In this document: one piece after another, positions 9,015-58,756 of the stretch
Numbering within the stretch: the first letter of the stretch is position 1
How the letters are laid out: each line of letters starts with the position of its first letter
Assembly: GCF_001428805.1 (NCBI RefSeq)
Contig: NZ_LMIS01000001.1
Coordinates: forward strand, 3,513,908-3,577,907
Reading direction: 5' to 3'
Source of the DNA: Aeromicrobium sp. Root236
GTDB lineage: Bacteria > Actinomycetota > Actinomycetes > Propionibacteriales > Nocardioidaceae
DNA length: 64,000 nucleotides
Program-made: the position numbers and the translations under genes
The notes under the pieces: generated by a model
The model's input: only the letters and a program-made list of their open reading frames with translations
Databases searched by the model: none
What the model was told of the DNA's origin: nothing

Positions 9015-11113
9015 CCGACAAGCCTGACGACCTCACGCCGGACGAGCCGTCCGTCGACGACGCGACGGTCGACGACGCCCCCGAGCTCGACGAGGCGCCG
9101 GACGCCGGGGAGCCCGAGGCGAGCCTGTCCGACGAGGGCGACGGTGTGGTCGAGCCCGGGATCGTGGTCGAGCACGACGAGGAGATCGAGCTCGAGGACG
9201 TACCCGACGTCGAGCCCGCCTACGAGCTGCAGCCGGGCGAGGACACCGTGCTGGCCGAGGCGGCCACGACGTACGACGACACCGACGAGCCGGACCACGA
9301 CACGGGTGACGCCGACGACATCGTGGCGGCACCGCTCGACGACGAGCCGGCGGCCGACGACGCCGGCGACGACAGCACCGACCTCCAGCCGGCGACTGCG
9401 GACGACGACGGGGGATCGGCCCACTGGGGCCGGCGCATCCTGCTCGGCGCGGTCCTGGTGGTGGGCGTCCTCTACGTCGGTGGCTACTTCCTGACCGGCA
9501 GCCGGATGCCCGCCAACGCCACGATCGGTGGAGTCGACGTCAGCGGCATGTCGCCCGCAGACGCGCGCACCGCCGTCGACAAGGCCCTGACCCCCAACGT
9601 CGACCGCGAGATCGTGCTGACCCACGGCAAGACCGAGTTCCGGATCAAGCCCAAGGCCGCCGGACTCGCCCTCGACCTCGACCGCACGATCAGTGAGGCC
9701 GGCGGCGAGCGCAGCTGGAAGCCGGCCGACATGGTGGGCCTGTTCTTCGGCGACCACAAGACCGACCCGGCCCTCGACGTCGACGACGCCAAGCTCCAGA
9801 GCTCGATCGGCACGATCGGCGAGGCCGTCAACCGCGAGGTCGTCGAGGCCCAGATCACGTTCCCCGACGGCAAGCCCAAGGCCCGCGAGCCCAAGGCCGG
9901 CCGCGTCATCGCCCGCGCGGATGCGGCAAACGCGATCCGCGAGGCCTACCTCGTCAGTGACGAGCCCGTGAAGGTCCCGACGGCGGTCGTCGAGCCGGCG
10001 GTCGACTCCGACGGCCTCGCCGACGCGATGAAGACCATCGCGAAGCCTGCCGTGAGCGCACCGATCACGATCCGGGTCGGCGACAAGAAGGTCTCCCTGC
10101 CGGTCACGGCGTACGCCCCGGCTCTCGTCGTGCGGGTCAAGGACAACAAGCTGCAGCCCTACCTCGACGCCAAGAAGCTCGCCGGCCCGCTGACCGACTC
10201 CACGACCGGCATCGGCAAGAAGGCCGTCGACGCGACCGTCACGATCAAGAACGGCAAGCCCGTCGTGATGCCGGGCAAGGAAGGTGTGGGCCTGCAGCCC
10301 AAGGAGATGGCCGTCAAGCTGCTCCCGGCGCTGACCGAGTCCGGCTCGAAGCGTGCCGTCGAGGTTGAGGCCAAGGTCGTCGAGCCGCTGTTCACGACGG
10401 CCGACGCCAAGGCGCTCAAGATCAAGCAGAAGATCAGCAAGTTCGAGACGCACTTCCCCTACGCCGAGTACCGCAACACCAACCAGAGCCGCGCTGCCGA
10501 GCTGATCGACGGCACGATCCTCAAGCCGGGCGAGACGTTCAGCTTCAACAACATCGTGGGTGAGCGCACGGCCGCCAACGGCTTCGTCACCGGCACCGTC
10601 ATCAACGGCGGGGTGTTCCGCGAGGAGCTGGGCGGTGGCGTCTCCCAGGTCGCGACGACGACTTACAACGCCGGGTTCTTCGGCGGCATGGACGACGTCG
10701 AGCACCACCCGCACGCGTTCTACATCAACCGCTACCCGGTCGGCCGTGAGGCGACGGTCTACTTCGGCAGTCTCGACCTGCGGTTCAAGAACCCGACGAA
10801 GTACGGCGTCCTGGTCCACGCCTACGTCATCAAGAGCACGCCCTCGTCGCCCGGCACGATGCACGTCGAGCTGTGGAGCACCAAGGTGTGGGACATCAAG
10901 GCCGGCGAGTCGGCCCGTCGCAACGGCCGCACGCCGGGCAAGCAGTACGACGACACCGACCGGTGCGTGCCGCAGGACCCGATCCCGGGCTTCGACATCG
11001 ACATCTACCGCTACTTCTACAAGGGCGGCAAGAAGGTCAAGACCGAGACCGACACGGCCACCTACCAGGCCGCCGACCACGTCATCTGCGGCAAGAAGCC
11101 CAAGAGCGACTGA
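9011..11113 (+). CDS. VanW-domain membrane-anchored cell-wall protein
   Basis: 700 residues. The first 135 are extremely acidic (Asp/Glu-rich, low complexity) and presumably cytoplasmic. One membrane helix follows at about 140-160. The exported part has YoaR/PG_binding_4-type repeats at about 165-460, then a VanW domain at about 477-605 with the typical RAAELIDGTILKPGETFSFN and GGGVSQVATT. The last part has two Cys (DRCVPQ, HVICGK) that could form a disulphide. The VanW function is unknown; such proteins are thought to bind peptidoglycan and should not be read as vancomycin resistance. The coupling to a flavin reductase is unexpected. Confidence 0.85.
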   Translation: MTDKPDDLTPDEPSVDDATVDDAPELDEAPDAGEPEASLSDEGDGVVEPGIVVEHDEEIELEDVPDVEPAYELQPGEDTVLAEAATTYDDTDEPDHDTGDADDIVAAPLDDEPAADDAGDDSTDLQPATADDDGGSAHWGRRILLGAVLVVGVLYVGGYFLTGSRMPANATIGGVDVSGMSPADARTAVDKALTPNVDREIVLTHGKTEFRIKPKAAGLALDLDRTISEAGGERSWKPADMVGLFFGDHKTDPALDVDDAKLQSSIGTIGEAVNREVVEAQITFPDGKPKAREPKAGRVIARADAANAIREAYLVSDEPVKVPTAVVEPAVDSDGLADAMKTIAKPAVSAPITIRVGDKKVSLPVTAYAPALVVRVKDNKLQPYLDAKKLAGPLTDSTTGIGKKAVDATVTIKNGKPVVMPGKEGVGLQPKEMAVKLLPALTESGSKRAVEVEAKVVEPLFTTADAKALKIKQKISKFETHFPYAEYRNTNQSRAAELIDGTILKPGETFSFNNIVGERTAANGFVTGTVINGGVFREELGGGVSQVATTTYNAGFFGGMDDVEHHPHAFYINRYPVGREATVYFGSLDLRFKNPTKYGVLVHAYVIKSTPSSPGTMHVELWSTKVWDIKAGESARRNGRTPGKQYDDTDRCVPQDPIPGFDIDIYRYFYKGGKKVKTETDTATYQAADHVICGKKPKSD

Positions 11114-11116
11114 GCG

Positions 11117-11950
11117 CTACACCGCGACGTTGAGCCGGATCGTCATGCCGTCGTCGACGTTGCCGGTCACGGTCGCCATCTGCAGTGAGTAGCCGTCGCT
11201 GAAGACCATGTCGCTGTCGAGCGACGTCTGCGCCAGGTTCGTGATGCTCTGCTCGTAGCCGGACGTCGCGTAGACGAGCTTGCAGGCGTCCTCCGGCAGC
11301 GCGATCTGGGAGGTGCGGAGCCTGCCGGTCGCCTTCTGGGCGTCAGCAGCGGTCTTGTAGACCTCGAAGTGGATGTGCGGCCACCGTCCGCTGTAGGCCC
11401 CGGGGAAGGTCGTCGTGAACGACAGCTTGCCGTCGGCGTCGGCGGCCTGCACGCCGCGCAGGTAGTTCTCGTCGGCGATCTCCGAGTCGTACATCGAGTA
11501 GCGGCCGTCACGGTCGCAGTGCCAGACGTAGACCGCGGCACCCTCGTACGGCGTGACTGCGCTGCCGTTCAGGTCGTAGATCGTCAGGTCGAGCTTCGCC
11601 GTGACGCCCTCGGCCGTCGTGCTGGTGCCGCCGAAGCTCGACCGGATGCCGCTGCGCACGACGCCGCTCTCGGTCAGCACGTTGACGCCGTTGGAGCCGT
11701 CTCCGGGGAACGGCCCGCCGGTCTCCTCGGGAACCTCGCCCTTGACGGCCCCGGTGGTGGACGAGCCCGACGGGCTCGAGGTGGTGGCGACCGGGGAGCC
11801 CGACGAGTCGCTGCCGCTGCACGCCGCGAGGGCGGCCGCGAGTCCCGCACCGGTCAGCAGGCCCAGGGCGCGGCGCCGGTTCAGGAGCGTCGGCAGGTCG
11901 TGGGACAGCCCGAGGTCGTGCTCGTGGGGTCCGTCGTGATCGTGCGTCAT
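11117..11950 (-). CDS. Exported intradiol dioxygenase-like lipoprotein
   Basis: 277 residues. A twin-Arg stretch (RRRALGLL) and hydrophobic run lead to a lipobox ending LAAC at about residue 44, so export by Tat and lipid anchoring are likely. The mature part after a Ser/Thr linker has an intradiol ring-cleavage dioxygenase fold with DGRYS and YSGRWPHIHF, which supply the Tyr, Tyr, His, His iron ligands of the family. Known enzymes split catechol rings; an extracytoplasmic version could attack aromatic compounds outside the cell. A TACGGT -10 (11958-11963, minus) lies 7 nt before the ATG. It converges on the VanW gene with a 3-bp gap. Confidence 0.85.
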   Translation of the reverse strand: MTHDHDGPHEHDLGLSHDLPTLLNRRRALGLLTGAGLAAALAACSGSDSSGSPVATTSSPSGSSTTGAVKGEVPEETGGPFPGDGSNGVNVLTESGVVRSGIRSSFGGTSTTAEGVTAKLDLTIYDLNGSAVTPYEGAAVYVWHCDRDGRYSMYDSEIADENYLRGVQAADADGKLSFTTTFPGAYSGRWPHIHFEVYKTAADAQKATGRLRTSQIALPEDACKLVYATSGYEQSITNLAQTSLDSDMVFSDGYSLQMATVTGNVDDGMTIRLNVAV

Positions 11951-11992
11951 GCCTTTAACCGTACGGACGCTGCCTGGACCACTGTTATGCCT

Positions 11993-12982
11993 TCACTGTG
12001 CGGAGGCTGTGGTCCCGGGCTCGAGGTACAGGTAGTCGTGGTGGTCGACGAACCCGTACGGCTCGTAGAGCGCGAGCGCCGCGTGGTTGGTGCGCATCGT
12101 CTGCAGGTACGCCTTGTCGGCACCGTGCTCGACGGCCCAGGCGAGCGACGTCTCGACGATGCGGCGGGCCAGGCCCTGGCGGCGGTGATCCGGGGCGACC
12201 TCGACGCACGCGATGCCGGCCCACTCGCCGGTGACCACGACCCGGCCGATCGCCACGGCGGGGGAGCCGATCGAGACGAAGCCGACGGTGGCCGGGCCCT
12301 CGAGGACAGCGCGCGCCGCAGCCGGGTCGTTGACGCGGCCGTAGTTGACGAGCCAGTCGTCGTCCGCGGTCGGGGCGATGCGGGCGGTCGGGTCGGCGGC
12401 GTACGCCGGCTCGAGATCGGCGACCTGCACGACAGCGCCGCCGTGATAGCCCACCATCGGCACCCACCCGACGGCCCTGATTCCGCGTTCGGCCGTCGAG
12501 CCGACGACGACCTGGGCGAGCGCCGGGACGTCGCGCGACGCGTAGAACTCGCGCACGCGGCCGAGCGCTTCGTCGAGCGGCAGGCCGGGATCGCCGTGCA
12601 CCGCGACGGAGTTGGCCCGGCCGGTGAACCGGCGCGACGTTCGCAGCTCCCAGTCGCCGAGGTGGACCGACTCGATCGCGGGCCAGCCCAACGACGTGAT
12701 GCGGGTCAGCTCGTCGGCGCTGACATCGACGGCGCGACGCCGTCTCAGGGGGCGGTCCGGTACGGCCTTCCAGGTGACGAAGTCCGAGAACGCGACGACC
12801 TGAGTACGCCCGTCCCGGCGCTCCAGCGTCACGCTCGTCTCGTCGACCGCGCGCACCCGCCCGATGGCGTCGCTCATGGCCGGCCCACCTGACGGCCCCG
12901 TGCCGCCGACGACGTAGCGGACCACGATGCGTTGCCCGATCGAGGCGGCGTCCAATGGCATGTCCCCAGCCTTCCATGTCAT
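11993..12982 (-). CDS. GNAT acetyltransferase, Rv0428c/cg3035 family
   Basis: 329 residues. The N-terminal 85 or so form a small beta-barrel-like domain (IGQRIVVRYVV, then SVTLERRDGRTQVVAFSDF). The C-terminal GNAT domain has the acetyl-CoA loop VAPDHRRQGLARRI and ends with LYEPYGFVDHHDYLYL. The Corynebacterium glutamicum homologue cg3035 was described as an N-acetylglutamate synthase, the first step of arginine synthesis; assigning that role here is by family resemblance. A second start at 12961 is possible. A palindrome covers the start region and faces fdxA. Confidence 0.75.
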   Translation of the reverse strand: MTWKAGDMPLDAASIGQRIVVRYVVGGTGPSGGPAMSDAIGRVRAVDETSVTLERRDGRTQVVAFSDFVTWKAVPDRPLRRRRAVDVSADELTRITSLGWPAIESVHLGDWELRTSRRFTGRANSVAVHGDPGLPLDEALGRVREFYASRDVPALAQVVVGSTAERGIRAVGWVPMVGYHGGAVVQVADLEPAYAADPTARIAPTADDDWLVNYGRVNDPAAARAVLEGPATVGFVSIGSPAVAIGRVVVTGEWAGIACVEVAPDHRRQGLARRIVETSLAWAVEHGADKAYLQTMRTNHAALALYEPYGFVDHHDYLYLEPGTTASAQ

Positions 12983-51547: not shown

Positions 51548-52033
51548 CTAGAGCTTGGTCTGGCCGTACTCGACCTCTTCGCGCAGCGAGGACCGGATGG
51601 CCTTGGCGACCTCGGGCTCGATCTTCTTGCCGATGAACGGGATCGACACCTTGACGTCGCCGTCGAGGCTGAACGAGGTGGCGGCGCCGTCGGCGACGAG
51701 CTTGGCCTTGCCGGTCATCTCGGCGGGCTGGCCGATGATGCTGACCTTGACGTCGGCCGTACGGTTGCCGCTCGCGTCGGGGCCGCTCCACACCTCGGTC
51801 TGCTTGACCTTGACGGTGCTGCCGGTCAGCTTCTTGACGAAGTCGGGCAGATCGGCGTCCTGCGTACGGATGACCGTGACGGTCGCGCCGTCGCCGGACT
51901 CCTCGACCGTGACCTCGTACTCGTGGGCGCCCTGGTTGGCGCACGACTCGGTGCGGAACGCCTGGTCGGTGATCAGCCCGTAGACCGTCGCGACGTCGGC
52001 GCCCTCGTAGCTGAAGGACTCGGTGAGCTTCAT
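51548..52033 (-). CDS. DUF2505 protein
   Basis: 161 residues, a START/SRPBCC-like cone fold as judged from the alternating strands: FSYEGADVATVYGLITDQAF at the start, VTVIRTQDADLPDFVKKL in the middle and a long C-terminal helix. It matches DUF2505, which is widespread in actinobacteria and may bind a lipid or hydrophobic ligand. It is coupled to pspA through an ATGA overlap. Confidence 0.82.
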   Translation of the reverse strand: MKLTESFSYEGADVATVYGLITDQAFRTESCANQGAHEYEVTVEESGDGATVTVIRTQDADLPDFVKKLTGSTVKVKQTEVWSGPDASGNRTADVKVSIIGQPAEMTGKAKLVADGAATSFSLDGDVKVSIPFIGKKIEPEVAKAIRSSLREEVEYGQTKL

Positions 52034-52770
52034 TCGGTCACCGCCTGGGGTGCGGCGGTGCCGACGCCCTTGAGCTCGGCCAGGCGAGCCTCGACCTCGG
52101 CGTCGGTGGACGACGCCTCGAGCTCGTCCCATGGGTCGGCCGTCGCGGCGTTGAGCTCGGCCTGGCCGGCGACCTGCGCCTCGGAGCGACGGACCTTGTC
52201 CTCGAACCGGCCCAGCTCGCTGGTGGGGTCGAGCACGTCGATCGACTTGACGGCGTCCTGCACCTTGGCCTGTGCCTCGGCGGTCTTGGCGCGGGCGACG
52301 AGCTGGTCGCGCTTGGTCTGCAGCTCGCCGAGCTTGGCCTTCATGCCGATCAGCCCGGTCTTGAGCTTCTCGACGGTCTCGTTCTGCGAGGCGATCATGG
52401 GCTCGGCCTGCGTGGCCTCGGTCTCGAAGCCGATCTGCTTGGAGAGCGCGATCTTGGCGAGCTGGTCGAACTTGTCGGCCTCGGCCGCCTGGCCGGACGC
52501 GCGCAGCGAGTCCGCCTTCTGCGACGCGGCGAGCGCCTTCTGGCCCCACTCCTTGGCCGCGGCGACGTCCTCGGCGTGGTCCGCCTCGGCGAGGCGCAGG
52601 TTGCCGATGGTCTGGGCCACGGCGTCCTCGGCCTCGGCGATCGAGTTGGTGTAGTCCCGCACGAGCTGGTCGAGCATCTTCTCCGGGTCCTCGGCCTTGT
52701 CGAGGAGGGCGTTGATGTTGGCGCGCGTCAGCTGGCCGATGCGCCCCAGGATGGTCTGTTTCTGAGCCAT
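52030..52770 (-). CDS. pspA: PspA/IM30 family protein
   Basis: 246 residues from the ATG at 52770 (MAQKQTILGRIGQLTRANIN), two codons or so after alternative ATGs. Nearly the whole protein is a long alpha-helical coiled-coil (about 25-200), with an acidic C-terminus. PspA/IM30/Vipp1 proteins coat and stabilise the inner membrane under envelope stress. The N-terminal amphipathic helix binds lipid. The gene is followed by DUF2505 in the same operon; no ClgR-type regulator is close by. Confidence 0.9.
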   Translation of the reverse strand: MAQKQTILGRIGQLTRANINALLDKAEDPEKMLDQLVRDYTNSIAEAEDAVAQTIGNLRLAEADHAEDVAAAKEWGQKALAASQKADSLRASGQAAEADKFDQLAKIALSKQIGFETEATQAEPMIASQNETVEKLKTGLIGMKAKLGELQTKRDQLVARAKTAEAQAKVQDAVKSIDVLDPTSELGRFEDKVRRSEAQVAGQAELNAATADPWDELEASSTDAEVEARLAELKGVGTAAPQAVTE

Positions 52771-52891
52771 GGTCATCACTCTCTGTCAGATGCTGCCTGT
52801 GGGGTGCGACGATCGGGCACAGGGTTGCCGCACACGTCGATCTTGCTGCATCGCGGTGACCGAGACAACCGGATCCGGCGCCGGGCACCGC

Positions 52892-54115
52892 TCAGCCTGC
52901 GGTTTCGGGCCCTTGCCTGCCGCCGCGGAAGATCCACTGCCGCATCAGGACGAAGCGCATGGCGGTCACGAACAGGTTGGCCGCGGTGAGCAGCACGACC
53001 TCGACGAGCGGATGGCCCTCGCCTCGTACGGCGCGCAAGGTCCACAGCGCGCCGCTCGTGACCCCGAGGCCGCACGCGAACACGAGCAGGCCCTGGAGCT
53101 GGTGCCGCAGCGCGCCCTCCGGCCCGCGGAAGCCGAACGTGAACCGCCGGTTCGCGGCCGTGTTGGCGATCGCGGTCGCGGCGAGCGCGAGGGCGTTCGC
53201 CTCCTGGGCGCCGAGCCGTCCCCGCAGCCCGACGTACAGGACGCCGTACGCGAGGGTCGACAGGATCCCGACCAGCGCGAACACGACCATCTGGGCGCTG
53301 AGCCGGCCGCCGGCGCTGCGGGCGGTCGTACGCCCGAGGGTGCCGGCGACCTCCGCCAACGGCACGCGTCCACGCAGCAGCGCCCAGCCGAGCCGGCCCA
53401 TGCCGCGCAGGTCGGCCGCCGCGGTGCGGACGATGTCGACGCGGCTGTCGGGGTCGTCGACCCAGTCGACCGGGACCTCGTGGATGCGCAGCCCGGCCCG
53501 CTCGGCGACGATCAGCAGCTCGGTGTCGAAGAACCACTCGTCGTCCTCGATCAGCGGCAGCAGCTGCTCGGCCACGTCGCGCCGGATCGCCTTGAAGCCG
53601 CACTGGGCGTCGGAGAAGCGCGCCCGCAGCGCCCCGCGGAGCATCACGTTGTACGTCCGGGAGATCAGCTCGCGCTTCGGCCCGCGAGTCGTCCGCGCGG
53701 TGCGCGCCAAGCGGGAGCCGATCGCGAGGTCGGAGTGCCCTGACAGCAGGGGAGCGACCAGCGGCAGCAGCGCATTGAGGTCGGTCGACAGGTCGACGTC
53801 CATGTAGACGAGCACCTCGGCGTCCGACCGTGACCAGGCCTCCTTGAGCGCCCGGCCGCGTCCTTTCCGCGCCAGCGACACGACCGACACGTCCTCGTAG
53901 CGGTGCGCCAGCTGGTGGGCCAGCAACCCCGTCGCGTCGGTGCTCGCGTTGTCGGCGATCGTCACCCGCGACTCGTACGGCAGCGTGCGCAGGTGCTCGC
54001 GGACGGTCTCGACCGATCGCACCAGGGTGCGCTCCTCGTTGTAGACCGGGATCACGATGTCCAGGACGACAGTGGCGACTGGCATGGGCTCGGCGTACGT
54101 GGTGGCGGCGGTCAC
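52892..54115 (-). CDS. Bifunctional GT2 glycosyltransferase / GtrA protein
   Basis: 407 residues from the GTG at 54115, which overlaps the stop of the upstream gene (GTGA). Residues about 14-250 are a DPM1-like GT2 domain: VIPVYNEERTL, VYMDVDLSTDLN (DxD) and FSDAQCGFKAIRRDVA. Residues about 270-400 are a GtrA domain with four membrane helices. The first part should make polyprenyl-phosphate-sugar; GtrA helps flip it. The fused form is known in actinobacteria and the product would feed the ArnT-like enzyme encoded just upstream. Confidence 0.92.
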   Translation of the reverse strand: MTAATTYAEPMPVATVVLDIVIPVYNEERTLVRSVETVREHLRTLPYESRVTIADNASTDATGLLAHQLAHRYEDVSVVSLARKGRGRALKEAWSRSDAEVLVYMDVDLSTDLNALLPLVAPLLSGHSDLAIGSRLARTARTTRGPKRELISRTYNVMLRGALRARFSDAQCGFKAIRRDVAEQLLPLIEDDEWFFDTELLIVAERAGLRIHEVPVDWVDDPDSRVDIVRTAAADLRGMGRLGWALLRGRVPLAEVAGTLGRTTARSAGGRLSAQMVVFALVGILSTLAYGVLYVGLRGRLGAQEANALALAATAIANTAANRRFTFGFRGPEGALRHQLQGLLVFACGLGVTSGALWTLRAVRGEGHPLVEVVLLTAANLFVTAMRFVLMRQWIFRGGRQGPETAG

Positions 54116-56133
54116 TGGATGCCTGCCGAGAGGTCGTAGAGCGTGACGCCGTCGACGGTCGTGGCGGTGAAGTTCTCCGACACCCAGCTGGTGATCTCGC
54201 TGCTGGTGCTGCCGCCGGCGTTCATCTCGCCGCCCCCGCCACCGATGAAGTAGTGGATCTCGCCGTCGGCGACGTACTGCTTGAACTCGGCGAGCGTCGG
54301 GCTCGGGTCCGAGCCGTTGAACCCGCCGATGGCCATGACCGGCAGCTCGGTCGCGAGCTGGTAGCCCGACGCCGTGTTGGAGCCGATCGCCGCGGCGACC
54401 CAGGTGTAGGAGCCCGCGTCGGTCCTCAGCAGCGCGTTGATCGCGCTGGTCGACGTCGAGCCGTTGAGCAGGCCGCCGGCGCCGCCTGCCCGGCCGGTGG
54501 TGCCGGTGGTCCCGCCGGGTCCCTGCCGCGTGCCGTTCTGCGTCGGCGGCTGGCCCATCCGACGGCCCCCGCCGCCGGGTCCGCCACCCATGCCGCCACC
54601 CGTGCTGGGTCCGGCGCTGGGGATCGAGCCGGTGTGCGGCGTCGACGCGGTGTCCACGGCGTACGCGGTGGGGCCGGCGAGCATCGTGATGACCGCGGCC
54701 GCGCCGACGGCGAGCATGACGCGGCGCGAGAGCAGCCGGTGCAGCACGATCAGCAGGGCCGAGCCGACGCCGGCGACCACCACGGCGTACTTGAGCCACG
54801 GGACGAAGCCGTCGGCTCGGTCGAGCAGCGCATAGCTCATCGACGCGGTCAGCGCGAGGACGAACGCGGCGCCGAGGGGAGCGATGACGGAGTCGCGGTG
54901 CTCCCAGAGGATGCCGGCGCCGATGCCGATGAGCGCAGCGATCGCCGGCGCCAGCGCGACGGTGTAGTAGGCGTGGAAGATGCCGGCCATGAAGCTGAAG
55001 GTCAGCCCGGTCACGAGCAGCCAGCCGCCCCACACGATGAGTCCGCTGAGCTGTCGATCGGTCCGGCCGGCCTTGCGGCGGAACCACACGCCGAGCGCCA
55101 GGCTCGCGAGGGCCGCCGGGAGCAGCCAGGCGATCTGCCCGCCGATCTCGGAGCTGAACAGCCGGAACAACCCCGTCGCGCCCCAGTTGCCGCCGCCGTT
55201 GCCACCGCCGCCGCCGACCGAGCCGACCTCGTTGCCGTTGAGCCGGCCGAAGCCGTTGTAGCCGAGCGTGAGCTCGAGGATCGAGTTGTTCTGCGAGCCA
55301 CCGATGTAGGGCCGGCTCGACGCGGGCCACAGCTCGACGATCGCGATCCACCAGCCGGCGGCGACGATCATCGAGCCGAACGCAACGAGCAGGTGCCACA
55401 GCCGCTTGCCGATCGAGGGCTTCGCGGCCACGAGGTAGACGAGGGCGAGCGGCGGCAGCACCAGGAACGCCTGCAGCATCTTGGTGAGGAAGGCGAAGCC
55501 GACCAGCGTGCCACCCAGCACGAGCCAACGCACTGCCCGCTCGGGCGACTCGATCGCCCGGAGCGTGGCGTAGACCGCCGCGATGAGGAACAGCGTCAGC
55601 AGTGCGTCGGGGTTGTTGAAGCGGAACATCAGCACGGCGACCGGCGTCAGCGCGAGGGTCGCACCCGCGAGCAGCCCGGCCCACGCGTTGTGAGTCGTAC
55701 GCCGCACCGCCGCGTACAGCAGTCCCACAGACCCGACGCCCATCAGCGCCTGCGGGACGAGCATGCTCCACGAGGACAGCCCGAAGATGCGGACCGACAG
55801 CGACATCGGCCAGAGCGACATCGGTGTCTTGTCGACCGTGATCGAGTTCGACGCATCGGAGGAGCCGAAGAAGAACGCCTTCCACGACGCCGAGCCGGCC
55901 TGCACCGCCGCGGAGTAGAACGAGTTGGCCCACCCGGACGCGCCGAGCCCCCACAGGTAGAGGACTGCGGTCGCGAGCAGCAGGCCCAGCAGCGCCGGGC
56001 GTACGAGGGGCGAGTCGTCGGGCTTGCCGCGCCATAGGCGAGTCGTCCACGTCGGAGGAGAGGGTGTTCGGACAGGGGCGGGCGCCTCGGTGCGGCGCTC
56101 GGCCGCCGGCGCGATGAGTGTCGTCTGGTTCAT
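54112..56133 (-). CDS. ArnT/YkcB-type GT39 membrane glycosyltransferase
   Basis: 673 residues. An N-terminal cytoplasmic tail of about 43 residues, then some eleven membrane helices to about 500. The first outer loop has FYSAAVQAGSASWKAFFFGS and ITVDKTPMSLW, the acidic loop shared with ArnT and YkcB. A Gly/Met/Gln/Pro-rich segment (about 512-560, GGGMGGGPGGGGRRMG) leads to an exported C-terminal domain (about 565-673). It should transfer a sugar from polyprenyl phosphate to a surface acceptor. It is coupled to the GT2-GtrA gene, and has a PhoP-box-like repeat upstream. Confidence 0.88.
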   Translation of the reverse strand: MNQTTLIAPAAERRTEAPAPVRTPSPPTWTTRLWRGKPDDSPLVRPALLGLLLATAVLYLWGLGASGWANSFYSAAVQAGSASWKAFFFGSSDASNSITVDKTPMSLWPMSLSVRIFGLSSWSMLVPQALMGVGSVGLLYAAVRRTTHNAWAGLLAGATLALTPVAVLMFRFNNPDALLTLFLIAAVYATLRAIESPERAVRWLVLGGTLVGFAFLTKMLQAFLVLPPLALVYLVAAKPSIGKRLWHLLVAFGSMIVAAGWWIAIVELWPASSRPYIGGSQNNSILELTLGYNGFGRLNGNEVGSVGGGGGNGGGNWGATGLFRLFSSEIGGQIAWLLPAALASLALGVWFRRKAGRTDRQLSGLIVWGGWLLVTGLTFSFMAGIFHAYYTVALAPAIAALIGIGAGILWEHRDSVIAPLGAAFVLALTASMSYALLDRADGFVPWLKYAVVVAGVGSALLIVLHRLLSRRVMLAVGAAAVITMLAGPTAYAVDTASTPHTGSIPSAGPSTGGGMGGGPGGGGRRMGQPPTQNGTRQGPGGTTGTTGRAGGAGGLLNGSTSTSAINALLRTDAGSYTWVAAAIGSNTASGYQLATELPVMAIGGFNGSDPSPTLAEFKQYVADGEIHYFIGGGGGEMNAGGSTSSEITSWVSENFTATTVDGVTLYDLSAGIQ

Positions 56134-56176
56134 GCCTCCACGGTGCGAGACCGGACTGGCACGACCGTGTGGCTCG

Positions 56177-56195
56177 TCTGTGCCACCTCTGTGAG
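56177..56195. promoter_or_regulatory. PhoP-box-like repeat upstream of the ArnT-like operon
   Basis: TCTGTG occurs at 56177-56182 and 56188-56193, 11 bp apart on the plus strand; the full reverse reads CTCACAGAGGTGGCACAGA. It lies 44-62 bp before the ArnT-like start. The pattern is like the repeat at 58401 and like the direct repeat TCACAGC-N4-TCACAGC reported for mycobacterial PhoP. Confidence 0.5.
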
Positions 56196-56220
56196 GCGTT
56201 CAGCCCTGTCGCCGCAGGGC

Positions 56221-57636
56221 TCAGTTGCGGGGCAGGGTGAGGGTGAACGTCGTGTCGCCCGGGGTGCTCTCGACCGTCGCGGTGCCGTGGTGGGCGTGCA
56301 TGATCGCGCGTACGAGTGACATGCCGAGGCCGGCTCCCCCCGAGGCCCGCGTGCGGGACGAGTCGCCGCGCACGAAGCGTTCGAAGATCGTCGGTACGAG
56401 CGCAGGGTCGATGCCGGGGCCGTCGTCGTGCACCTCAACCCGCACGTTGTCGCCGACCTGCAGGCGTACGTCGACGGTCGTCTTCGGCGGGGTGTGCCGG
56501 CTGGCATTGGTCAACAGGTTCGTGACGGCCTGGTGGAGCCGCTGCTCGTCGCCGGTCACGGTGACGGGTTCGTCGGGCACGTCGAACGTCCACTGCCGCT
56601 CCGGATCGACGACGCGGGCGTCGTTGACGGCCTCGACGACGAGCCGGGTCAGGTCCACCGGCCTGCGGTCGACCTCGCGCCCCGCGTCGAGACGAGCCAG
56701 CAGCAGCATGTCCTCGACGAGCGTTGACATGCGGCCCGCCTCGGACTCGACCTTGGCGAGGATCTGGTCGGGGTCGTCGCGACCGGTACGCCGGCTGAGC
56801 TCGGCGTAGCCCTTGATCGTCGACAGGGGAGTGCGCAGCTCGTGCGACGCGTCGGCGAGGAACTGGCGTACCTGCTGCTCGCTCTCGTGCCGGGCGTCGA
56901 GCGCTTCCTCGACGTGGCCGAGGAGCTGGTTGAGCGCGCCGCCGACCTGGCCGACCTCGGTCGCGGGGTCGGTGAGCTCGACGGGTACGCGTACGGTCTC
57001 GCCGATCTCTCCCGACGACAGCGGCATCGCGATGACCTCATGGGCCGTGGCGGCGACCTCGCGGAGCGGCCGGAGCTGTCGGCGTACGAGCACACGCCCG
57101 GCGACCGCCGCGGCGGCGATGGCTCCCAGCGCGAGCAGGGCTTCCCACCAGATCAGGCTGGCGATGGTTTCCTCGACGTCATCTCGCGGCAGACCCACGA
57201 TGTACGTCGATCCGTCCGGTCCCTCCTGGGCGAGGACGCGGTACGAGCCGTACTTCGGCAGGTCGACGTTGTGGGCCTCGTCGTCGGGAGTGACATCGGC
57301 CAGCAGGTCACGTGCGGCAGTCGAGATCTGGGGCAGCCCGCCGCTGGCAGTGACGATCGACCCAGGCTGGCCCGGGATCACGATGATGAGCCCGACATCC
57401 TGACCACGGCCGGCGTCAGGACGACGGTCGCCGAGATCGCCGTCAGAGCGGGGCAGGTTCGGCGCGTGCTGGGCCCGGCCCATCGAGTCCTTCAGCTTTT
57501 CGTCCAGCCGATCGGTGAGGTAGTGACTCATGACCACGGTCACGGCACCGGCGACGAGCAGGCTCGCGACGGCGACCAGGGCGACCACCGTGACGATGAG
57601 GCGGCCGGTCAGCGAGGAGGGGAGGAGCTTGCGCAC
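56221..57636 (-). CDS. Sensor histidine kinase paired with the PhoP-like regulator
   Basis: 471 residues from the GTG at 57636. Two membrane helices (about 13-37 and 165-186) bracket a sensor domain with an acidic, Pro-containing loop. HAMP follows, then HisKA with ADASHELRTPLSTIKGYAEL (His about 265) and a catalytic domain with VTNLLTNASRHT and GAGLGMSLVRAI. It is 5 bp after the regulator gene, so one transcript makes both. The signal is unknown. Confidence 0.92.
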   Translation of the reverse strand: MRKLLPSSLTGRLIVTVVALVAVASLLVAGAVTVVMSHYLTDRLDEKLKDSMGRAQHAPNLPRSDGDLGDRRPDAGRGQDVGLIIVIPGQPGSIVTASGGLPQISTAARDLLADVTPDDEAHNVDLPKYGSYRVLAQEGPDGSTYIVGLPRDDVEETIASLIWWEALLALGAIAAAAVAGRVLVRRQLRPLREVAATAHEVIAMPLSSGEIGETVRVPVELTDPATEVGQVGGALNQLLGHVEEALDARHESEQQVRQFLADASHELRTPLSTIKGYAELSRRTGRDDPDQILAKVESEAGRMSTLVEDMLLLARLDAGREVDRRPVDLTRLVVEAVNDARVVDPERQWTFDVPDEPVTVTGDEQRLHQAVTNLLTNASRHTPPKTTVDVRLQVGDNVRVEVHDDGPGIDPALVPTIFERFVRGDSSRTRASGGAGLGMSLVRAIMHAHHGTATVESTPGDTTFTLTLPRN

Positions 57637-57641
57637 GAGAC

Positions 57642-58358
57642 CTACTCTGCAGGCTTCAGGACGTAGCCGGCGCCGCGCTTGGTGTGGATCATCGGCTCGT
57701 GCCCGGCGTCGACCTTCTTGCGCAGGTAGGAGATGTAGAGCTCGACGACATTGGCCTGGCCGCCGAAGTCGTAGTCCCAGACCCGGTCGAGGATCTGCGC
57801 CTTCGACAGCACACGGCGCGGGTTGCGCATCAAAAAGCGCAGCAGCTCGAACTCCGTCGCGGTCAGCTCGATCTCGCGGCCGTCGCGCACGACGTCGCGG
57901 CTGTCCTCGTCGAGGCTGAGGTCGCCGACCGTGATGACCGAGTTGGGTCGCGCGTCCATCGCACCGGCGCGCCGCATCAGCCCGCGCAGGCGGGCGACGA
58001 CCTCCTCGAGGCTGAAGGGCTTGGTGACGTAGTCGTCGCCGCCGGCGGTCAGCCCGGCGACGCGGTCCTCGACCGAGTCGCGTGCAGTCAGGAACAGCAC
58101 CGGGATCTCCGGCGACTGGGCGCGTACCTTGCGCAGGACCTCCATGCCGTCGTAGTCGGGCAGCATCATGTCGAGGACGATCGCGTCGGGGATGAACTCC
58201 TTGGCGGCGGCCACGGCCTTGCGCCCTGTGTGCGCCATCTGGATGTCCCAGCCTTCGTAGCGCAGCGCCATCTGCAGCAGCTCGGCGATGTTGATCTCGT
58301 CGTCGACGACGAGGACGCGCAGGGGGGTCCCGTCGGCGCGGGTCAGTGTGGAAGCCAT
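57642..58358 (-). CDS. OmpR-family response regulator, PhoP-like
   Basis: 238 residues from the ATG at 58358 (MASTLTRADG); a longer frame would enter the repeat-bearing promoter. The receiver has Asp63 (LDMMLPDYDG) and KPFSLEEVVARLR; the winged helix has LSKAQILDRVWDYDFGG and VVELYISYLRKKVD, very close to mycobacterial PhoP. It should bind direct repeats, and two sets lie in the promoters of this locus (56177, 58401). The paired kinase is downstream. Confidence 0.92.
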   Translation of the reverse strand: MASTLTRADGTPLRVLVVDDEINIAELLQMALRYEGWDIQMAHTGRKAVAAAKEFIPDAIVLDMMLPDYDGMEVLRKVRAQSPEIPVLFLTARDSVEDRVAGLTAGGDDYVTKPFSLEEVVARLRGLMRRAGAMDARPNSVITVGDLSLDEDSRDVVRDGREIELTATEFELLRFLMRNPRRVLSKAQILDRVWDYDFGGQANVVELYISYLRKKVDAGHEPMIHTKRGAGYVLKPAE

Positions 58359-58400
58359 GAGTTCAGTGTGGATCCCCCAGACCCGGAGCGCGTGAGAACG

Positions 58401-58420
58401 ACCTGTGAGCAACCTGTGAG
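58401..58420. promoter_or_regulatory. PhoP-box-like direct repeat between regulator and small peptide
   Basis: ACCTGTGAG occurs at 58401-58409 and 58412-58420, exactly 11 bp apart; the reverse reads CTCACAGGTTGCTCACAGGT. It lies 43 bp before the response regulator and 82 bp before the divergent small peptide gene, a fitting place for autoregulation and control of both. Confidence 0.6.
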
Positions 58421-58501
58421 TGCCGGAGGTCGTGGCCGGACCCAGCGGGTGATGGGCCGGCGCACAGGGCGATGACAGGTCGGGCCCGCATCGTGGCGGC
58501 C

Positions 58502-58756
58502 ATGAATGACATCGCTGACGACAGTTCTGCCCAGCCGACCTCGTGGTCGACCCGTACGCTCGTGGCCGCCGCGATCACCGCGGTCGTACTCGGCCTGGGA
58601 GCCGGTGCGGCCCTCGGAGCCGCCGGCGGCAGCTCCGACGGGGGCATGGGAGGTGGCCCGGGCGGCGGCCCCGGCATGCAGCGCGGGCAGCAGCCGCCCG
58701 GCGGCGGCCCCGGCATGCAGCAGCCCGCCACGCAGGGCAACGCCACCAACAACTGA
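58502..58756 (+). CDS. Small Gly/Met/Gln-rich membrane-anchored peptide
   Basis: 84 residues from the ATG at 58502 (58472 is an earlier option). A polar, acidic N-terminus of about 23 residues, one membrane helix (about 25-45, LVAAAITAVVLGLGAGAALG) and an exported tail of GGMGGGPGGGPGMQRG-type repeats rich in Met, Gln and Pro. The tail is like the low-complexity segment of the ArnT-like protein. The family is unknown. The Met-rich repeats could bind metal or serve as an acceptor for the glycosyltransferases; both ideas are speculative. Confidence 0.65.
   Translation: MNDIADDSSAQPTSWSTRTLVAAAITAVVLGLGAGAALGAAGGSSDGGMGGGPGGGPGMQRGQQPPGGGPGMQQPATQGNATNN

Follow-up and report, generated by a model that had tools for sequence, protein, structure and literature searches.

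A PhoP-type two-component system and its predicted target, a transmembrane glycosylation gene pair, in Aeromicrobium sp. Root236 and related actinobacteria

Does the PhoP-like two-component system encoded in a 64,000-nucleotide stretch of Aeromicrobium sp. Root236 (contig NZ_LMIS01000001.1, positions 3,513,908 to 3,577,907; the whole stretch is referred to as the window) control the glycosyltransferase (GT) pair encoded next to it, and what is the role of the small glycine-rich membrane protein encoded divergently on its other side? According to the original prediction, the system is wired to an ArnT-like enzyme and a GT2-GtrA fusion, with the small protein as a candidate acceptor of the sugar. 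We consider it likely that the locus represents a PhoP-type envelope regulon that drives a transmembrane glycosylation pair, and the evidence for this comes from gene linkage and from a conserved box in front of the genes concerned.

Linkage and a conserved box at the glycosyltransferase pair

All five reading frames are open, and those of the response regulator (RR), the sensor histidine kinase (HK), the ArnT-like enzyme and the GT2-GtrA fusion lie on the - strand, the last two sharing GTGA at 54115-54112 (Table 1). Coordinates and frames agree with those first described. The small divergent membrane protein is also present on the + strand; its start was moved from 58472 to 58502 because close relatives, which start with M-N/S-D, begin at the codon equivalent to the ATG there.

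Linkage was surveyed in two sets of loci. Among 100 Nocardioidaceae genomes the regulator (cut-off E 1e-95) was found in 63, the GT-C enzyme (cut-off E 1e-100) in 41 and both in 34. All but two of the latter (32/34) have the enzyme gene at most 12 kb downstream of the regulator on the same strand; the exceptions have it 1.18 Mb away (G091) or on a separate contig (G099). The count of 63 covers primary regulators and leaves aside three second regulators (68–69% identity), none of them accompanied by the small protein. The broad set holds the best 80 of at least 593 relative-encoding stretches (at least 597 matched) plus the window, giving 81 loci, nearly all of them actinobacterial. A GT2-GtrA gene is present in 67 of the 81 loci, and in 66 of these it adjoins an ArnT-like gene in the same orientation; in three of the 14 loci without it (L004, L016, L050) the stretch is short or sits at a contig edge. 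A regulator of at least 66% identity, here called a close regulator, is present in 32/81 loci, which belong to Nocardioidaceae, Actinoplanes, Micromonospora, Nonomuraea, Streptosporangium, Streptomyces, Saccharothrix, Intrasporangium and one Mycobacterium. The regulator of L017 was overlooked by the gene caller and revealed by tblastn.

The box was first spotted by eye in the intergenic DNA of the window and then checked in other loci. It consists of the direct repeat CTGTGA-N5-CTGTGA (TCACAG repeats), and one copy lies between the genes for the RR and the small protein and one before the ArnT-like gene. The pattern CTGTG-N6-CTGTGA occurs at exactly two sites in the window, where 0.03 would be expected. 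Throughout the genome (a single contig of 3.92 Mb) CTGTGA-N5-CTGTGA has one exact match, which is the copy before the RR, and six one-mismatch matches including the copy before the ArnT-like gene; a control with the reversed pattern gave three matches in all. Another two-component system of the same genome (L195, G000:C1:3325800-3329800) has a one-mismatch box near its regulator start and is divergent from a 541-aa frame that Pfam does not match and from a GtrA gene.

For the 81-locus counts a box was scored where at least 10 of 12 positions matched in a fixed orientation at -25 to -110 from the start. By this definition it precedes the first GT gene in 50/80 loci and the adjacent close regulator in 24/30, but only 6/661 other intergenic starts and the second GT gene in 2/73 (Fisher 1e-49). 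It was also seen before 8/58 other two-component genes, seven of these eight hits preceding PhoP-type regulators of 51–57% identity (including L059), and before none of 240 starts without a gap. The repeat period is 11 bp in 51/81 loci, whereas periods of 7–10 and 12–15 give 0 to 6, and 38 of the 51 period-11 sites lie at -61/-62. In the Nocardioidaceae set, where either orientation was allowed, at least 10/12 positions matched upstream of ArnT in 28/30 and upstream of the regulator in 64/66 cases, as compared with a mean of about 8 and a maximum of 10 for shuffled stretches (40 per stretch). ArnT upstreams scored 10 in G091, where the regulator is 1.18 Mb off, and 11 in G099 and G056; of the second copies, G005b scored 11 though G005 lacks a close regulator, and G023b and G086b scored 8. 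TCACAG-like direct repeats with an 11-bp period are thus found at the putative target promoters. In one locus (L020:2885-3616, the same place as L135) the regulator reads VVYDE instead of VVDDE; boxes and small protein persist there and in L120 and L130.

Could the neighborhood be kept by descent only, with repeats that serve autoregulation or another factor and a two-component system that leaves the GT pair alone? Co-distribution is indeed partial (34 genomes with both, 29 with the regulator only and 7 with the enzyme only), and in the excerpt available of one study MtrA, GlnR and AfsQ1 are said to have core recognition sequences in common with Streptomyces PhoP (PMC11019849). Yet the box persists at the GT pair across several kb of intervening DNA (L120, L130, L131, L135, L167), and it also occurs where no close regulator is near (L007, L015, L042, L046, L058). 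A further comparison took 20 genomes, picked after the box had been seen, from the 49 loci that have no close regulator within them. PhoP-type regulators at E 1e-60 or better are encoded in 20/20 of them, boxless genomes included, so presence alone does not discriminate. In 11 of the 20 the regulator is 78–85% identical to Prescottella PhoP and in four others 72–79% identical to the window regulator. Among these 15 a box in the right orientation precedes the GT pair in 13, the exceptions being L010, whose best match has the wrong orientation and position and was therefore not scored, and L012. The genomes with weaker regulators (53–70%) have the box in 0/5 cases (P 0.001 against 13/15); one of the 20, L021, has its 53% regulator within the locus. 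Conservation by descent only, with repeats that serve autoregulation or another factor, appears improbable to us.

Several observations weigh against control of the GT pair by the regulator. Counts from the two surveys concern related loci and not independent events, and the 81-locus and 66-locus sets overlap in genomes (e.g., L002/L115 and L008/L167). Scores below 10 were obtained for 30/80 first GT genes and, before the GT pair, in six of the 32 loci with a close regulator (8 in L043, L050 and L073; 9 in L066, L068 and L079). The Rhodococcus locus L040 has a perfect box before the regulator and none before the GT pair, and no box precedes GT2 in G094. At E 1e-100 the enzyme is missing from 29 of the 63 regulator genomes, and the GT-C enzyme is therefore not an obligate target. 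No kinase match was found near the regulator in L120, L130 and L135, and beside 26/63 primary regulators no small protein was found. Seven genomes without a close regulator, in which ArnT is the second gene, score only 7–9 upstream of ArnT; since six of them have the box before GT2 and all seven have a PhoP-type regulator of 51–58% identity in the fetched stretch, they do not form a true negative control. On balance, the wiring of the regulator to the GT pair, as predicted from the conserved box, is well supported. The claim that the PhoP-like system is wired to the pair is in this way borne out by synteny in 32/34 genomes and by the putative PhoP-type box found widely before the pair.

Regulator class and a second predicted target

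The closest solved relative of the window regulator is PhoP of Mycobacterium tuberculosis, which binds TCACAGC-N4-TCACAGC with a strict 4-bp spacer, according to the portion of the article available (PMC4832192). The window system resembles the PhoPR system described there in having direct repeats with a 4-bp spacer and an 11-bp period, and five of the six base-contacting residues listed for M. tuberculosis PhoP are identical in an alignment read by eye, Ser216 being replaced by Leu. The window regulator scores 268 bits against M. tuberculosis PhoP and the Prescottella regulator (L059) 409 bits, and two mycobacterial genomes (G107 and G109) encode one regulator of each class apiece. From these bit scores and this co-occurrence the window regulator looks like a paralogue class and not an orthologue of M. 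tuberculosis PhoP, while the L059 regulator is the orthologue by its 409 bits. The box is also found before the GT pair that adjoins the PhoP orthologue in L059, although not in the Rhodococcus locus, which points tentatively to a long-standing connection of PhoP-type systems with surface glycosylation.

Three candidates for a known equivalent were set aside, the last two provisionally. The PhoRP system in the excerpted part of PMC11019849 is a phosphate system with a different box, Streptomyces CutRS was judged by its sequence, and SCO5282/83 was compared by its description only, as far as the source at hand gives it: its D125 is assigned to a HAMP domain, whereas the weak HAMP match of the window kinase in Pfam is at 182-243.

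A one-mismatch box also lies upstream of a 127-aa small membrane protein that heads an operon encoding a ferric reductase (PF01794), an FMN_bind protein and ApbE. At E 1e-80 the reductase was found in 27 of the 100 genomes, and all 27 are among the 63 regulator genomes (hypergeometric P 2.6e-7, with kinship not controlled). Thirty of 31 matching loci were fetched; the box is present in 19 of them, that is in 19/25 at 60% identity or more and in 0/5 below, and a small protein precedes the reductase in 8/30. In two genomes without the ArnT-like gene (L119, L129) the kinase is followed downstream by the operon at a distance of less than 1 kb, and a 10/12 box is present. We predict the ferric-reductase/FMN_bind/ApbE operon to be a second target of the regulator.

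Table 1. Genes and putative regulatory sites of the locus (window coordinates), with the second predicted target
Feature	Position	Strand	Remarks
Small single-pass membrane protein, 84 aa	58502..58756	+	W-S-T-R motif near N-terminus, one predicted transmembrane helix, Gly/Pro/Gln/Met-rich tail
PhoP-type direct repeat CTGTGAGCAACCTGTGA	58403..58419	.	45-61 bp before RR start, 83-99 bp before small protein
OmpR/PhoP-type response regulator, 238 aa	57642..58358	-	Pfam Response_reg + Trans_reg_C
Sensor histidine kinase, 471 aa	56221..57636	-	Pfam HisKA + HATPase_c
PhoP-type direct repeat CTGTGCCACCTCTGTGA	56178..56194	.	45-61 bp before ArnT-like start
ArnT/YkcB-like GT-C glycosyltransferase, 673 aa	54112..56133	-	PMT_2, low-complexity linker ~511-559, YkcB_C
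GT2-GtrA fusion (predicted polyprenyl-phosphate sugar synthase + membrane domain), 407 aa	52892..54115	-	Glycos_transf_2 + GtrA_DPMS_TM
Ferric-reductase operon	L204:4664-7674 (G000:C1 ~2950660-2953680)		PhoP-type box upstream

The glycosyltransferase pair and the small membrane protein

The GT2 domain (PF00535, 87.3 bits, cut-off 23.3) has dolichol monophosphate mannose synthase as its best PDB match, and a GtrA-type membrane domain (PF04138, 41.5 bits, cut-off 26.1) is fused at its C-terminal side. The ArnT-like protein has the make-up of a GT-C transferase with many transmembrane (TM) helices (PF13231, 104.6 bits, cut-off 26.1) and carries a YkcB_C domain (PF24878, 111.5 bits, cut-off 27) at the single such place in the genome; its nearest relative among the matches listed is 87% identical and comes from an Aeromicrobium. 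An AlphaFold2 model built from a 42-sequence alignment (84 homologues being at hand) has a mean pLDDT of 81.7, with a linker at 511–559 that is below 50 and predicted to be disordered. The best PDB match of this model is ArnT of Cupriavidus metallidurans (5f15; Z 27.6 and rmsd 4.4 over 494 residues; Foldseek E 5.9e-9), ahead of other GT-C enzymes (OST, PMT and arabinosyltransferases), and the alignment to ArnT spans the conserved C-terminal YkcB_C domain (model residues 42–670). D93, D101, K102 and D176 are invariant in 84/84 homologues. The model of the lipid A 4-amino-4-deoxy-L-arabinose (Ara4N) transferase ArnT (NF009784) gives 23.6 bits, far under its cut-off of 567, and to judge from the predicted structure the protein resembles ArnT in fold only and not as a member of the Ara4N transferase family. 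Extra ArnT-like copies lie near the first one in L033 (6001-9788), L073 (~11059-12936) and L075 (~11080-12489), and a gene of the PspA/IM30 family (120.8 bits) follows the GT2-GtrA gene at 52030-52776, as it does in L002 and L003.

The small protein is one of a recurring family with an N-terminal segment that often bears a W-S/T-x-R motif, one TM helix and a Gly/Pro-rich tail, encoded divergently from the regulator. No match was obtained in a Pfam scan, DUF5666 (PF18914) included, and the CU044_5270 family (NF038083) gives 17.3 bits against a cut-off of 100; a DUF5666-like tail is found in relatives at L075:4929-5621 (27.1 bits, cut-off 27) and L073:5153-5623 (21.8 bits). A profile of the family was trained on 32 loci on which it was later run, so that those hits are there by construction. 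On 5,383 control open reading frames it gave five hits of at least 18 bits: the one in L124 is the immediate small protein, those in L138, L156 and L160 are divergent and 1.3–2.3 kb upstream of the regulator, and the one in L125 is a frame on the + strand. The hits in L138, L156, L160 and L125 were left out of the presence counts, and L123 was counted on 18.8 bits only.

Counted in this way, the small protein stands beside 37/63 primary regulators, more often in genomes with the enzyme (27/34) than in those without (10/29; Fisher P 0.0004, or 13/29 and P 0.008 with three copies one gene farther out included, kinship not being controlled in either case). The small protein was thus seen together with the glycosyltransferases in 27/34 Nocardioidaceae genomes, and the pattern that would have spoken against the original prediction, a peptide never found with them or genes scattered in relatives, was not seen.

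This bias toward enzyme genomes would also fit the reading in which the small protein, or the C-terminal domain of the ArnT-like enzyme, is the glycosylated acceptor and a common low-complexity run marks the partners. Some relatives (L017, L122, L153) moreover have Ser/Thr/Pro-rich C-termini, and Ser/Thr/Pro-rich stretches are often O-glycosylated. The window protein, though, has a tail of 43 aa with 17 G, 6 P, 6 Q and 3 M but just 2 Ser and 2 Thr. Ten genomes have the small protein without the enzyme at E 1e-100, it was not found in 7/34 genomes that have the enzyme, and where the GT pair is separated from the regulator (L008, L017, L020, L024) it remains at the regulator. Inspection of eight Streptomyces-type loci (L035, L037, L038, L056, L062, L064, L077, L080) found no Gly-rich small protein divergent from the regulator. 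As for the low-complexity run, the likeness between the Gly/Met/Gln/Pro stretches of peptide and enzyme is real, but it was set aside as a sign of partnership because such a linker (20–138 aa, median G+M+P+Q fraction 0.58) is a general feature of the 84 ArnT homologues. A Gly-rich membrane protein adjoining the enzyme was seen in one case, in Aquihabitans (L021:7433-7762), where the gene of a single-pass protein immediately precedes the ArnT-like gene in the same orientation and does not lie beside the regulator. The acceptor role suggested for the small peptide at the outset is not supported by this distribution, the results speak neither for nor against the C-terminal domain of the enzyme, and we regard the reading that either of them is the acceptor as unlikely. 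Its persistence at the regulator where the GT pair lies apart ties the small protein primarily to the two-component system, even if it is seen more often in genomes that have the enzyme. A methionine-scavenging role stays a mere thought, as Met is not conserved and is absent from the tail in L002.

Predicted pathway and known systems

Building on the computed domains, fold, synteny and conserved box, we infer how signal, binding, direction of control, sugar, acceptor and small protein might fit together in a PhoP-type regulon that drives the GT pair. The kinase would sense an envelope signal, and the phosphorylated regulator would bind the repeats of 11-bp period and control, most likely activate, its own operon together with the divergent small membrane protein gene, the ArnT-like/GT2-GtrA operon and in some species the redox module too. 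The GT2 domain would then load a sugar onto polyprenyl phosphate in the cytoplasm, the GtrA domain may help to flip the lipid-linked sugar, and the ArnT-like GT-C enzyme would pass the sugar to an acceptor outside the membrane, for which a cell-wall polymer or a lipid is a better candidate than the small protein. The small protein itself may be a kinase accessory or a co-regulated envelope protein. A bolder version, which we put forward tentatively as a possibility with the odds against it, is that a surface-glycosylation pair plus an extracytoplasmic flavin redox module forms the core ancient target of PhoP-type systems across Actinobacteria, and that the divergent small Gly-rich membrane proteins form a new family, coupled to the kinase as accessory or feedback components, with an extracytoplasmic tail that would report on the state of wall or redox.

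Each part of the system is of a known kind, and neither the combination nor the exact regulatory signature was found in a literature search of partial coverage, which gave no paper that links a PhoP-type regulator with this GT pair in Actinobacteria. A GT pair that is widespread in Actinobacteria without a known acceptor thereby gains a concrete candidate regulator and an exact predicted site, and a family of small membrane proteins without a Pfam match is defined.

The predicted redox target shares its PF01794/FMN_bind/ApbE operon with the MsrQ-like (PF01794) flavinylation clusters of Actinobacteria as far as these are described in the available part of PMC8238504, and differs from them in the PhoP-type box and in the small membrane protein ahead of the operon in 8/30 loci. 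The modification of arabinogalactan with galactosamine by PpgS/Rv3779, as given in an excerpt of PMC9671496, likewise combines a polyprenyl-phosphate sugar synthase with an outer-face transferase acting on a wall polymer, but in the window the PpgS model reaches 38.3 bits, with a cut-off of 370. The Firmicutes systems CsbB/GtcA/YfhO and YkcC/YkcB have in common with the window pair a GT-A polyprenyl-phosphate sugar synthase, a GtrA-type partner and a GT-C transferase; unlike in those systems, as portrayed in the portion at hand of PMC8035078, GtrA is here fused to GT2, and the pair comes with a linked PhoP-type two-component system and small membrane protein. The likeness to Bacillus subtilis extends to the YkcB_C domain, and among 14 control genomes B. 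subtilis alone gave a match. YclJ and YrkP are response regulators. The ykcBC operon of B. subtilis is assigned to the regulons of both in a figure legend, so that two-component control of such a GT pair has a precedent.

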